Assembly (NCBI GenBank): GCA_944323705.1
Contig: CALUTM010000001.1
Location: 1 to 64,000, forward strand
Direction of reading: 5' to 3'
Origin: Candidatus Gastranaerophilales bacterium
GTDB taxonomy: Bacteria > Cyanobacteriota > Vampirovibrionia > Gastranaerophilales > Gastranaerophilaceae
DNA length: 64,000 bases
Under the pieces are notes generated by a model, which was given only the letters and a program-made list of their open reading frames with translations, was not told where the DNA came from and ran no database searches. The position numbers and the translations under genes are program-made. This document shows positions 242 to 46,050 of this stretch, piece after piece (the stretch's first letter is position 1; every line of letters begins with the position of its first letter).

Positions 242-360
242 CATGAAATTTATTTGTTGGTTTTCACCCAACCTTGCTTAGCACATTTTTCTCATCAACG
301 AGACTTAAGCATTATAGGGTAGACTTTAGTCTGCCGCTTGCAGTCGGGCGTTAACCCCCC

Positions 361-470
361 AAACTTGATTTACCCCCTTTTTTAAACAAGCGGAGTAGTT
401 TGGCGTGGAGTCTTCGAACTTGATTTACCCCTTTTTCACCATACAGAGTAACTTGCAGGGCGGGTGGAAC
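361..470 (+). repeat. 54-bp dispersed repeat, locus A (two units)
   Basis: Two degenerate tandem units start at 361 and 416. Each begins (A)AACTTGATTTACCCC, has a T-run, then a variant of CATGCGGACTAGTTTGGCGT. The same unit occurs at 8578, 23531, 39930 (inverted) and 45027. It ends just before the stop codon of the minus-strand gene at 489-1100. Confidence 0.75.
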
Positions 471-488
471 CCAACAAAAAACTGAATT

Positions 489-8577: not shown

Positions 8578-8765
8578 AAACTTGATTTCCCCCTTTTTTA
8601 AACATGCGGACTAGTTTGACGTTAAATCTCCGAACTTGATTTGCCCCCTTTTCAAACATGCGGACTAATTGGGCGTAGAGCCTCTAAACTTGATTTCCCC
8701 CCTTTTCAAACATGCGGACTAATTGGGCGTAGAGCCTCCGAACTTGATTTACCCCCTTTAACATG
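8578..8765 (+). repeat. 54-bp dispersed repeat, locus B (three full units and one partial)
   Basis: Units start at 8578, 8633, 8686 and 8741, a period of 53-55 bases. Each reads roughly AACTTGATTTnCCCCC, TTTTnAAA, CATGCGGACTAATTGGGCGT and AGAGCCTCC. Units 2 and 3 are almost identical, so duplication is recent. The array ends about 16 bases before the ATG of the glycosyltransferase gene at 8782, so any promoter for that gene must lie in or upstream of the repeat. Confidence 0.85.
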
Positions 8766-22414: not shown

Positions 22415-22958
22415 ATAACTCAAAATATTCCGCCTTGTCAAGCATCCTGTCATCACGATAATAGCTGTTATAGAGTTTTGCTCTCTTGATTATGTTATAC
22501 CACTGATTATAATGTGCCATAAAATCATCTTTATTCTTGTTCATATAATGTATTGTAACAATACCTTCGTACCCTCTTGTTACCCGATAAAACTCACACT
22601 GAGCCTGAACTTTGCCGTAGTTTTCGGTACATCTGCCGACAATAGCGTCATTTTGCGTAAGTCTGAGTGTCTTGTATCTTGCAGTCGGATTAGCCTTAAG
22701 AAGTTTGGCTGAACTGTTATGCAAAAAAACATTTATGGGAAACTCGGAATGTTTGTAAGAATGTATAACGATTGAACGGGTCCAATTATTGCTGCTCTGT
22801 CCGTTCGGAACATACTGCAAAAGAGCCTCATTACCGATTTTTTTATAATATCCCTTCACCCAGAGTTCTTTGTCGGGAAATTTTATTATGATTGTTTCAT
22901 ACGCAAAGACACTCAGTGCAGAAAATATCAAAATACTAAATAAAAGGACTTTTCTCAT
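22413..22958 (-). CDS. Secreted hypothetical protein
   Basis: The 181-residue protein has a clear signal peptide (MRKVLLFSILIFSALSVFA, cleavage near residue 19). The mature part is mixed alpha/beta, with two cysteines in GRCTENYGKVQAQCEFY suggesting one periplasmic disulfide. No known domain was recognised. It overlaps the upstream NIF3 gene by 23 bases and probably belongs to the same transcript as nif3 and coaBC. Confidence 0.6.
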   Translation of the reverse strand: MRKVLLFSILIFSALSVFAYETIIIKFPDKELWVKGYYKKIGNEALLQYVPNGQSSNNWTRSIVIHSYKHSEFPINVFLHNSSAKLLKANPTARYKTLRLTQNDAIVGRCTENYGKVQAQCEFYRVTRGYEGIVTIHYMNKNKDDFMAHYNQWYNIIKRAKLYNSYYRDDRMLDKAEYFEL

Positions 22959-23712
22959 TTGCGATTACTCCCTTTATCCCGACAATCTTTTCAAGCAGCT
23001 TCGGTGCAAAAATTTCACTCTCAAAATGCCCTATGTCAAATATAACCGACTTTGCTTCCAATGCGGTATGGAACTTGACATCTCCCGTAACAAACGCATC
23101 CGTCTTGCCTATAAATTCCGAGCCTGAGCCTGCACAAAATCCGATAGTACGGACTTTTTCCACACCCAAATTATTGACATATCTTAGCTTGGGTGAAATT
23201 TTTAAAAGCCTGTTTTTTAACTCTTCCACCGTTATCGGCTCATCAAGCTCTACAACCCTTGCAAAATCATCATTATAACTTTTTTTAAACCCCAATTCAT
23301 TAATAAGCGTGTCCGTTGTACCGCCTTCCGCTCTGTCAAGATTGGTATGTGCAGAGTAAATATTAATATCTTTATACTCAAGCGGAACATAAAATAAAGG
23401 ATGGTGCGAAATTATCATATCACAACCCGCTTCCCGTGCCTGCTTGACAACATCATCCGTAACGGTCAGGGCATAAAGAATTTTATTAACTTCTGCCACT
23501 AGCATAGATGAATCATTTTCTTTATTGTGCGGGGTAACTTGCAACTCAAGCTTACTGTTTACATTTACCCCCTTTTCACCATGCGGACTAGTTGGTAAGT
23601 CAAGGCTACTGTTTACATTTACCCCTACCCCCCAGCCGCTTGCATCCCAAGCCTCCTGAGTGTCTAAAGGTGCAAACTCCTCAATTCTGCGTACAATCTC
23701 ATATTTATTCAA
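22936..23712 (-). CDS. NIF3/YbgI-family metal-binding protein with an in-frame repeat insert
   Basis: NIF3 proteins form hexamers with a dinuclear metal site and are often called GTP cyclohydrolase I type 2, though their role is uncertain. Family features are EAWDASGWGVG near residue 20, AGCDMIISHHPLFY near 94-107 with metal-binding His pair, SAHTNLDRAEGGT near 120, and GHFESE near the C-terminus. The segment from about residue 29 to 64 is two 18-residue repeats starting GVNVNS, encoded by two units of the dispersed repeat (23531-23636). It sits in a loop just after the first strand and keeps the frame. The length of 258 is near normal for short NIF3 proteins despite the insert. Confidence 0.85.
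   Translation of the reverse strand: MNKYEIVRRIEEFAPLDTQEAWDASGWGVGVNVNSSLDLPTSPHGEKGVNVNSKLELQVTPHNKENDSSMLVAEVNKILYALTVTDDVVKQAREAGCDMIISHHPLFYVPLEYKDINIYSAHTNLDRAEGGTTDTLINELGFKKSYNDDFARVVELDEPITVEELKNRLLKISPKLRYVNNLGVEKVRTIGFCAGSGSEFIGKTDAFVTGDVKFHTALEAKSVIFDIGHFESEIFAPKLLEKIVGIKGVIANEKSPFI
23531..23636 (+). repeat. 54-bp dispersed repeat, locus C, inside the NIF3 coding region
   Basis: Two units with an exact 54-base offset (TACTGTTTACATTTACCCC at 23553 and 23607) include the core CACCATGCGGACTAGTTGG. The 54-base period equals 18 codons, so the NIF3 reading frame on the minus strand is preserved and encodes two similar 18-residue blocks. Confidence 0.85.
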
Positions 23713-24874
23713 AAATTTCCTCCAAAATGCGTCTTGCTATATTTTGTTTACTCTCTTTTTCAATATGTTTTATATTTAAACTTTTGTCAATAATGTAAAC
23801 TTCATTATCATCGCTGTTAAACCCGATATCCTTTCTTGAGATATCATTTGCAATCAACAAGTCGCATCCTTTGTTTTGAATTTTTGTTTTGGCATTGTCA
23901 ATCAAATTTTCGCTTTCGGCACAAAATCCGACAATCTTAACCCCTTTAGTACCCGAAATTTCTCTTAAAATATCGGGATTTTTCACAAGCTCAAGAGTTA
24001 AGCTCTCCTCTTTTCCTTTTTTAATCTTTTGTTCCGAATAATTTTTAACCCTGTAATCCGCAACCGCAGCCGCCATAATAACGCAATCCTGATTTAACAA
24101 ATTTTCTTTTACTGCCGATTCCATCTCCAATGCCGTCGGAGTTACAATATTTTTATATCCTTTATTTACAGCAAAGGTAGAGACTAAAGTAACCTCCGCT
24201 CCCATTTCAAAGGCTCTGTCCGCAAGTGCTATGCCCATTTTTCCCGACGAAGAGTTTGAAATATATCTGACGGGATCAATTTTTTCTCTGGTTCCGCCCG
24301 CGGTAATTAAAATTCTTTTGCCCTTCAACTTCTCCGCAAAAATTTCTTCAGTCGCGTTATAAATGTCTTTTACCTCTCTCATCCTGCCCTTGCCTTCCGT
24401 TCCGCAGGCAAGATATCCCTCATCGGGTTCAAGAATGTAAAATCCCCTGTTTTTAAGTTTTGTCAGATTTTCCTGCACAAAAGGATTTTCCCACATATTA
24501 TTATTCATTGCGGGAGCTATCAAAAACTGCTTATTGAAAGCACACGCAGTGGATAAAAGTAAATTATCACATATTCCGTTCGCTAATTTTGATATAGTAT
24601 TTGCACTTGCGGGAGCAATGACAAAAATATCCGCCTCGGTAAGTGCAATATGTTCGGGCTTGTATTCTTTTATCTCAAAATTATCAATATAAACTTCGTT
24701 ATTGGAAAGCGTTTGCAAAGTCAGTTTTGTTACAAAATTGAGTGCATTCGGTGTTAAAACAACCCTTACGTTGGCACCGGATTTTCTGTACATTCTGATA
24801 AGTTCACAGATTTTGTATGCTGCAATACCGCCCGTAATTCCGATTAAAATATTCTTATTCTTTAACATAAACAC
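23705..24874 (-). CDS. coaBC: Bifunctional CoaBC (phosphopantothenoylcysteine synthetase/decarboxylase)
   Basis: The protein makes 4'-phosphopantetheine for coenzyme A. Residues 1-180 form the flavoprotein decarboxylase CoaC (GITGGIAAYK near 13, catalytic His in EYKPEHIALTEAD, APAMNNNMWENP near 130, the CGTEGKGRM loop with catalytic Cys). Residues 185-389 form the CoaB synthetase (ITAGGTREKIDPVRYISNSSSGKMG, MAAAVADYR, KKGKEESLTLELVKNPDIL). The start may be ATG 24874 or ATG 24868, as neither has a strong ribosome-binding site. It overlaps nif3 by eight bases. Confidence 0.96.
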   Translation of the reverse strand: MFMLKNKNILIGITGGIAAYKICELIRMYRKSGANVRVVLTPNALNFVTKLTLQTLSNNEVYIDNFEIKEYKPEHIALTEADIFVIAPASANTISKLANGICDNLLLSTACAFNKQFLIAPAMNNNMWENPFVQENLTKLKNRGFYILEPDEGYLACGTEGKGRMREVKDIYNATEEIFAEKLKGKRILITAGGTREKIDPVRYISNSSSGKMGIALADRAFEMGAEVTLVSTFAVNKGYKNIVTPTALEMESAVKENLLNQDCVIMAAAVADYRVKNYSEQKIKKGKEESLTLELVKNPDILREISGTKGVKIVGFCAESENLIDNAKTKIQNKGCDLLIANDISRKDIGFNSDDNEVYIIDKSLNIKHIEKESKQNIARRILEEIFE

Positions 24875-39929: not shown

Positions 39930-40135
39930 AAAAGAGGGGGTAAATGGGGTAAATAAAGTTTGTAAGCTCAACGCCCGATTGGTCCGCATGCTAAAAGAGG
40001 GGGTAAATGGGGTAAATGGGGTAAATAAGGTTTGTAAGCTCAACGCCCGATTGGTCCGCATGTTAAAAGGGGGGTAAATGAAGGGGGTAAATGAAACTTG
40101 TAAGTTTCACACCTGACTTATCCATATATTGAAAA
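39930..40135 (-). repeat. 54-bp dispersed repeat, locus D (three units, inverted)
   Basis: Three units lie in reverse orientation relative to the other loci. Each contains GGGGGTAAAT, TTTGTAAGCTCAACGCCCGATTGGTCCGCATG. Two to three extra copies of the 9-mer GGGGTAAAT expand the first two units, and the third unit is degenerate. The locus fills most of the 506-base gap between hsp20 and dnaK (39781-40286), which otherwise holds only the heptamer inverted repeat and promoters. Confidence 0.8.
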
Positions 40136-40196
40136 AGCAATTATTAAAAAAATGTTTATTTTTTAAGTTTTTCTTCAAAACAGTGTTTTAATAATA

Positions 40197-45026: not shown

Positions 45027-45130
45027 AAACTTGCTTTACCCCCTTTTCACCATGCGGACTAGTCGGACGTTAAGCCTACAAACTTTATTTACTCCCATTT
45101 ACCCCCATTTACCTCCATTTACCCCCCCCC
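45027..45130 (+). repeat. 54-bp dispersed repeat, locus E (two units)
   Basis: Units start at 45027 and 45080. The first includes AAACTTGCTTTACCCCC, CACCATGCGGACTAGTCGGACGTTAAGCC. The second is expanded by four copies of the 9-mer ATTTACCCC, with variations. The stop codon of the minus-strand CsaB-like gene (45109-45111) lies inside this repeat. Confidence 0.85.
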
Positions 45131-46050
45131 ATCAGTTGGTCAAACTCTTTTGAAAAATCTCTTTGAGTTAATTCAATTATCGGTAAATTGTATTCATCAG
45201 CAAGTTTTTTCACTTTGATATCATAGTTTATTGCCAAAGTTTTTACGCCCGATTTTATGGCACTAACATTAGCGTGAAACCGCATACCTATCATATATTC
45301 AAGATTACTGATTTTTTCAAAAACTTCATTAATGGTGAGTCCGTGCAAAACTTCCGTATCACTGTGCCCTTTTTTGTACAACATACGTGCAAATTTCTCA
45401 CAGATATCCAAATCGATACTGTCTTGGAAAGAAAAAATTTCTATTTTTTTGTCGGAAAATCGCTTCGTTATCTCCTCTGCAAGTGATTTTAAAAAATCGT
45501 CACTCAAAGTAGGATAATTTCTCAATTGTACTCCTACTATGCCCTTCCTGTTTCTAATCGGCAGATTTAAATCAAAAACGGCATCTTTTACAAGTTTTGC
45601 ATCTATTCCCCATTTTTTAAGCAGCTCTTGCGATTTTTTATCCCTAACGGAAATTTCATGGCAATGTCTGAGTGCCATGCGTGTTAACAACCTTCCGATT
45701 GTGGAATTTATCGGACCAATGCCTTGAGAGTATATAACAACTTTTTTACCTAAAACTAATGCCGTAAATATAACCCCGAGGTAATATATCAAACTCTTTA
45801 AGCTTGTAACATCCTGTAAAAGACTCCCGCCTCCTGAAATAAGTACATCCGCTTCAAGCATGGGTTTCCAAAAATTAAGCATCGGACAGGAAGAAACCTG
45901 ATGTAATTCTGCCGTTTTTTGGGGGTTAGAAGAGATTAGTGTTATTTTTTCCGCACCTTCTGACTTAAGTTTTTCACTCAAAACATGTGCAATCGCCTCA
46001 TCCCCGAAATTATCAAATCCTATATATCCAGAGACAATATATTTTGTCAT
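45109..46050 (-). CDS. csaB: CsaB-like polysaccharide pyruvyl transferase
   Basis: The 313-residue protein has N-terminal GYIGFDNFGDEAIAHVL (residues 8-24), VLISGGGSLLQDVTS (about 69), VIYSQGIGPINS (about 103) and YMIGMRFHANVSAIKSGV (about 253), all typical of the pyruvyl transferase family. CsaB adds pyruvate ketals to cell-wall polysaccharides that bind SLH-domain proteins. The last residues (GGGKWR) are encoded by the dispersed repeat, so the original C-terminus has been replaced or extended. It overlaps the upstream kinase gene by one base. Confidence 0.85.
   Translation of the reverse strand: MTKYIVSGYIGFDNFGDEAIAHVLSEKLKSEGAEKITLISSNPQKTAELHQVSSCPMLNFWKPMLEADVLISGGGSLLQDVTSLKSLIYYLGVIFTALVLGKKVVIYSQGIGPINSTIGRLLTRMALRHCHEISVRDKKSQELLKKWGIDAKLVKDAVFDLNLPIRNRKGIVGVQLRNYPTLSDDFLKSLAEEITKRFSDKKIEIFSFQDSIDLDICEKFARMLYKKGHSDTEVLHGLTINEVFEKISNLEYMIGMRFHANVSAIKSGVKTLAINYDIKVKKLADEYNLPIIELTQRDFSKEFDQLMGGGKWR

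Follow-up and report, generated by a model that had tools for sequence, protein, structure and literature searches.

The most probable explanation for an enlarged loop in a NIF3-family protein of Candidatus Gastranaerophilales is that a dispersed repeat entered the gene at this loop and survives there as a tolerated in-frame insert (probability about 0.83). The gene was identified in a 64,000-nucleotide stretch of genomic DNA (the window), to which positions given below refer. The peptide that the repeat encodes is presumably present in the mature protein, most likely as a passenger that NIF3 tolerates and without a functional role in it.

The NIF3/DUF34 gene is located on the minus strand at positions 22936-23712 (ORF list; TTG start, 258 aa). 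Its product matches PF01784 (Pfam, E 9e-46), with a score for TIGR00486 of 120 bits, slightly below the cut-off of 130.55. Comparison of the fold with solved structures of SA1388, B. cereus NIF3 and YbgI gave Z values of 23.7-24.6, the highest (24.6) being for the structures of SA1388 and B. cereus NIF3. Profile match and fold together place the protein in the DUF34/NIF3 family. The ORF is intact, as is its synteny with the neighbouring coaBC (23705-24874, minus strand), which is free of inserts in this genome and carries inserts in many congeners. Records retrieved with the NIF3 protein as query bear titles that are mostly Candidatus Gastranaerophilales or uncultured cyanobacterium/Melainabacteria.

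Alignments of NIF3 to its relatives end at 23493/23494 and restart at 23626/23627. From these breakpoints and from low pLDDT, the whole insert is placed at about 23495-23625 (minus strand), forming a loop of 48 residues compared with the native nine. Two repeat units lie within it in 54-nt register: unit 1 (23572-23625, minus strand; GGGGTAAATGTAAACAGTAGCCTTGACTTACCAACTAGTCCGCATGGTGAAAAG, translated as GVNVNSSLDLPTSPHGEK) matches the profile of the repeat family with 51.1 bits (E 2.4e-13 genome-wide), and unit 2 (23518-23571, minus strand; GVNVNSKLELQVTPHNKE) is more diverged. These are the two 18-residue GVNVNS blocks noted in the preliminary description, whose recognition of the insert as a member of a dispersed repeat is borne out by the profile match and by copies at ~22 sites. 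The exact 54-base period also given there applies to the spacing (54 nt from start to start for the two direct copies at 23528-23625) but not to the copies, which are ~80% identical over 44 nt. Similarly, the reading frame is kept in NIF3, as had been stated, but the divisibility of 54 by three is not an intrinsic reason for this: tandem copies elsewhere are spaced 51-72, so the 54-nt spacing is a survivor in the NIF3 ORF and not a fixed property of the element. The frame was probably kept because an array within a gene survives only if it is in frame and free of stops.

In an AlphaFold2 model built with 33 related sequences, pLDDT is above 90 over most of NIF3 and below 50 at residues 35-42 and 44-67; the host fold is modelled confidently and the insert is predicted to be disordered. 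The insert (residues ~31-72) follows the strand at residues 26-29 and precedes that at 78-81, and it lies upstream of the HHP metal-site motif (residues 103-105), which agrees with its earlier placement in a loop ahead of the metal-binding region.

The repeat family has a unit consensus of about GGGGTAAATGAAGTTTGTAGGTTTTACGCCCAACTAGTCCGCATGTTTGAAAAAG. Counts across the genome were obtained by profile and pattern searches, using a sequence-only profile built from 21 units; in the 1.93 Mb genome, the profile search gave ~41 unit matches at ~22 sites, mostly in tandem. The sequence GGGGTAAATG occurs 10 times in the window, with 0.11 occurrences expected, and the core pattern has 27 matches in the genome compared with none for its reversed control. 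The NIF3 insert is therefore a dispersed repeat and not a chance similarity; one of its units shares 29 consecutive identical bases with the intergenic copy at 45 kb. Units are bounded by GGGGTAAAT, and this edge is common among species whose internal cores vary. Profile matches were found in 22 of 57 genomes, every one of the same genus (for example, 50 in G030 and 23 in G033), and in none of the 23 genomes of other genera. The edge motif GGGGGTAAATG has a similar distribution: it occurs 74 times in this genome (13 for the reversed control), is present in 33 of 34 genomes of the genus, two others of which hold more than 80 copies, and does not exceed one copy per genome in other genera.

Within the window, further members comprise an intergenic copy of two to three partial units (341-473, minus strand), an intergenic tandem array of three 54-nt units (8585-8755, minus strand), an intergenic array with spacings of 72 and 66 (39937-40137, plus strand) and a copy with a GGGGTAAATG tail at the 3' end of ORF 45109-46050 (45035-45139, minus strand). 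The last of these adjoins the ORF and provides its final codons (MGGGKWR) and stop. Empty sites of the intergenic arrays could not be found, as synteny with relatives is too broken.

The unit is not palindromic. RNA folding of single units was no better than that of shuffled sequences (z 0.1, 1.2, -0.35 and -1.15), the consensus unit folded as DNA gave a z of 0.8, and the unit alignment contained no covarying structure. The same method is able to detect palindromes, as it returned a z of -5.1 for a repeat adjacent to a REP-associated tyrosine transposase (RAYT) of this genome. A short hairpin was seen only in the variant consensus of congener G030 (z -1.9), and an Rfam search of positions 20000-46500 produced no gathering-level match. 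No inverted ends were seen on the unit; the GGGGTAAAT at both edges may either belong to the unit itself or result from target duplication. The REP-associated tyrosine transposases are encoded at L130:1477-2013 and L131:325-909, each with its own palindromic repeat, and in L130 the transposase gene itself contains an in-frame copy of this palindrome (GTTGGGCAAGTATGCCCAACCGAC).

Alignment of NIF3 orthologues, the check that had been proposed for the insertion claim, identified insert-free alleles in most congeners and in further genera of the same order. The native loop in these is 9-10 residues long, and the segment was not seen as a conserved part of the fold, the observation that the preliminary description had named as contradicting an insertion. 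Inserts in the same loop also occur in L029/L058 (VNEI..FDRTT twice), L042 (GVNSS repeats), L043, L048, L060, L072, L030/L031/L046 (SPRPAGEG type), L037 and L059 (GC-rich type). That of L048 is a clear member of the ~54-nt family (E 5e-13). At the insertion point of the present species, its sister L029 carries two units that have diverged strongly and match the profile weakly (E 0.005 and 0.048), and its clade with the present species has support of 100/97; the insertion into NIF3 thus probably predates the split of the two. On a tree built without the loop, the insert state changed at least 10 times, and at least six times for the GVN type alone; a single clade of all GVN-type rows was rejected (p 3e-9), and insert-free species outnumber and surround filled ones. 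Loop sequences of the other types are likewise dispersed in their own genomes, with SPRPAGEG-type sequence at seven places in G020, six in G024 and three in G008, and the L059 insert matching one further place.

Two further features of NIF3 were observed among the relatives. The L030 insert (SPRPAGE type) looks nested, with a second dispersed sequence within a palindromic one. In L089 and L090, a different loop, right after HHP, contains CHSELFSESLQP, which resembles a translated TGTCATTCTGAACTTGTTTCAGAATC-type repeat that is also found in this genome (L027).

Three of the ~22 sites of the family lie within long ORFs, namely those of NIF3, NagZ and an Omp85/POTRA protein, and the frame is kept in all of them. 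This share is far below the coding density (assumed to be 85% for this comparison), as would be expected if most genic insertions are removed. NagZ (Glyco_hydro_3; L026/L156, G000:C53:8815-9900) contains an in-frame array of three units at residues 254-299; in 16 orthologues of the genus, the parts matching query residues 1-253 and 300-361 are directly adjacent, and the orthologue of sister species G003 is empty at the array site. In the Omp85/POTRA ORF (L009, G000:C2:77070-77185), two units are located in the Pro-rich N-terminal region and are read from the opposite strand, again in an open frame. Array spacings are divisible by three in 4/4 cases in coding sequence versus 7/17 outside genes, which is suggestive only (Fisher p 0.09, not significant).

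As a control for NIF3 being a special hotspot, coaBC sequences from the same loci were aligned (L029-L062). Long in-frame inserts are present in coaBC of congeners at three main positions, one at the junction of the CoaC and CoaB parts and the others at two places within CoaB, in up to 14 of 38 rows. They are often of repeat type (PLPKGEG-like, GVN-like, GGGGTAAAT-like or REP-like), and one carries the RAYT-type palindrome AGGTTGGACATACCTGCCCAACA. NIF3 as a special hotspot was rejected, since coaBC is struck as much or more. Repeat-derived segments are thus common in this genus, and NIF3 is one of several tolerant hosts.

It is proposed that the genus-specific, non-palindromic ~54-nt repeat propagates in the form of short tandem arrays with GGGGTAAAT at their edges, and that it entered NIF3 in the common ancestor of the species and the closest sister sampled. 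The landing site would have been the short turn that joins strand 26-29 to strand 78-81. Survival there would have depended on a stop-free frame (GGG-GTA-AAT, read as GVN), on the number of inserted bases being a multiple of three and on the turn tolerating a disordered loop; of the other frames, the one read as GGG-TAA would end translation and the one read as GGT-AAA-TGA would often do so too. An array would thus be tolerated in a gene only if it lies in an exposed turn, is read in the open frame and has a length that is a multiple of three, and the loss of the rest would fit the small genic share of sites.

The pre-insertion sequence of NIF3 was deduced from relatives. Insert-free L034 has a native TGGGGGGTAAAT at the junction (codons TGG GGG GTA AAT, Trp-Gly-Val-Asn), and L060, to which it is closely related, shows a duplication of 12 nt (GGGGGTAAATGC) at that place. 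The NagZ array starts on codons aligned to the native GV(K/E)xFG. At two insertion points GGGGTAAAT therefore doubles as native codons, though it is also the element's own edge and at a filled site is not in itself proof of a pre-existing target. These native GGGGTAAAT-like runs at the NIF3 (L034, L060) and NagZ junctions favour entry at a resident GGGGTAAAT-like run, by recombination or by template switching, and suggest seeding through microhomology. A broader picture is offered tentatively and at somewhat less than even odds: that the genus possesses mobile non-palindromic repeats which insert beside existing GGGGTAAAT, including ordinary Gly-Val-Asn codons, and which, with other families, continually add new disordered stretches to housekeeping proteins at the same loops.

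Mobilisation by a transposase, in place of recombination at short homology, would make the repeat a miniature element of the REP/RAYT or IS200/IS605 type with a specific target site. The fixed edges and recurring boundary motif resemble such an element, two REP-associated tyrosine transposases are encoded in the genome (NF047646, E 5e-44 and 5e-39) and RAYT-linked REPs are likewise found in frame within genes here. However, the possibility that these transposases carry the 54-nt unit at their flanks was rejected, as both are flanked by other palindromic repeats (GTCGGTTGGGCATACTTGCCCAACGA, which is the repeat with fold z -5.1, and GGTGGGC...GCCCACC), and the 54-nt unit lacks a conserved fold and has cores that differ between species around the common GGGGTAAAT edge; this origin is considered unlikely. 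Tandem duplication by local slippage in NIF3, unlinked to the dispersed repeats, or a chimeric assembly is very improbable. Short GGGGGTAAAT duplications do occur within NIF3 of relatives L060 and L042, but it is the whole 54-nt unit and not the edge alone that matches intergenic copies, a homology by which slippage and artefact are largely refuted; moreover, the gene and its coaBC neighbourhood are undisturbed and the related insert of the sister comes from an independent record (L029/L058).

The two remaining alternatives concern the history and the use of the loop. A single insertion in the ancestor of the genus, followed by loss in most species, would be compatible with the GVN-type loops of several species, and counts of state changes cannot separate gain from loss. 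The loops nevertheless belong to unrelated families (SPRPAGEG, GC-rich L059 and GVN types), each dispersed in its own genomes, and the tree topology described above, with its rejected GVN clade and surrounding insert-free species, renders this history improbable. Slightly more doubtful still is an adaptive loop, in which species-specific disorder would tune oligomerisation, partner binding or metal access of NIF3. Repeated use of one loop and retention of a two-unit insert by two sister species despite strong divergence could be read in this way, but the loop peptides are wholly different between species, the insert is modelled as disordered, and the pattern recurs in coaBC and NagZ, so that NIF3 is not special. 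Insertion of a dispersed repeat into a tolerant loop is accordingly the preferred reading.

The best-documented examples of repeats inserted in frame in conserved genes come from Rickettsia and Wolbachia, whose orthologues often have the insert in common. In the present, distant phylum, neighbouring species differ in whether a repeat occupies a given loop and in which family does so (NIF3, CoaBC, NagZ), which permits direct comparison of filled alleles with empty ones. With such alleles side by side, the question of how a non-coding repeat becomes a protein segment is made testable; if the proposed reading is true, the lineage is a natural experiment, with many replicates, on proteins gaining segments from non-coding DNA. 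The turnover of several repeat families in the same loops of close species lifts the case above a single curiosity. Caution is also warranted with these metagenome-assembled genomes, in which a repeat can be the source of a low-complexity peptide or of a difference in length between orthologues. A literature search found no paper on repeat inserts in NIF3 and none on repeats of Gastranaerophilales, which does not show that none exists.

Palindromic elements of Rickettsia (RPEs) and Wolbachia have been described by Ogata et al. (2000, 2002, 2005) and reviewed (PMC2229807, PMC10969869). RPEs are 105-146 bp in length, form stem-loops with terminal inverted repeats and are found in frame in Rickettsia genes; translation and activity have been reported for a guanylate kinase with such an insert (PMC2229807). 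The NIF3 unit resembles them in being dispersed both in intergenic DNA and in genes, where it is read in frame and affects solvent-exposed parts of conserved proteins, and in having insert-free orthologues alongside an open frame (NIF3, NagZ). The parallel to RPEs drawn in the preliminary description therefore stands for behaviour but not for membership. The unit is ~54 nt, tandem, GGGGTAAAT-edged and non-palindromic, and it occurs in Gastranaerophilales, in one genus among 57 relatives, whereas RPEs and their kin are hosted by Rickettsiales (Rickettsia, Wolbachia); an RPE proper was rejected on the grounds of palindrome and taxon. Different RPE families have been reported at or near the same locus in orthologues, but rickettsial orthologues usually have a common insert (PMC3767692), in contrast to the NIF3 loop, which turns over between species.

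Intragenic REPs of the GTAG and CGTC superfamilies are known within ORFs of several species (PMC3733652), as are the RAYT transposases (PMC2817692). These REPs are likewise short, single or grouped, and encode tens of residues in conserved genes, and insertion of different REPs at the same site has been noted for Xanthomonas recB, as in the NIF3 loop. True REPs with RAYTs occur in this genome and in coaBC of a congener; the NIF3 unit, however, is not the 20-40 nt palindrome that flanks a RAYT in a REP/RAYT system, as other repeats occupy that position here. Correia/NEMIS (107-bp form) and ERIC are MITE-like bacterial repeats with open frames (PMC2229807). The NIF3 unit shares with them the frame-compatible fusion to ORFs but is tandem, with neither visible terminal inverted repeats nor a TA duplication. 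In a related phylum, the short and long tandemly repeated repetitive sequences of cyanobacteria also form dispersed short tandem arrays. The evidence as a whole supports the interpretation of the NIF3 insert as an in-frame insertion of a selfish-type repeat, which works in a manner like that of RPEs.
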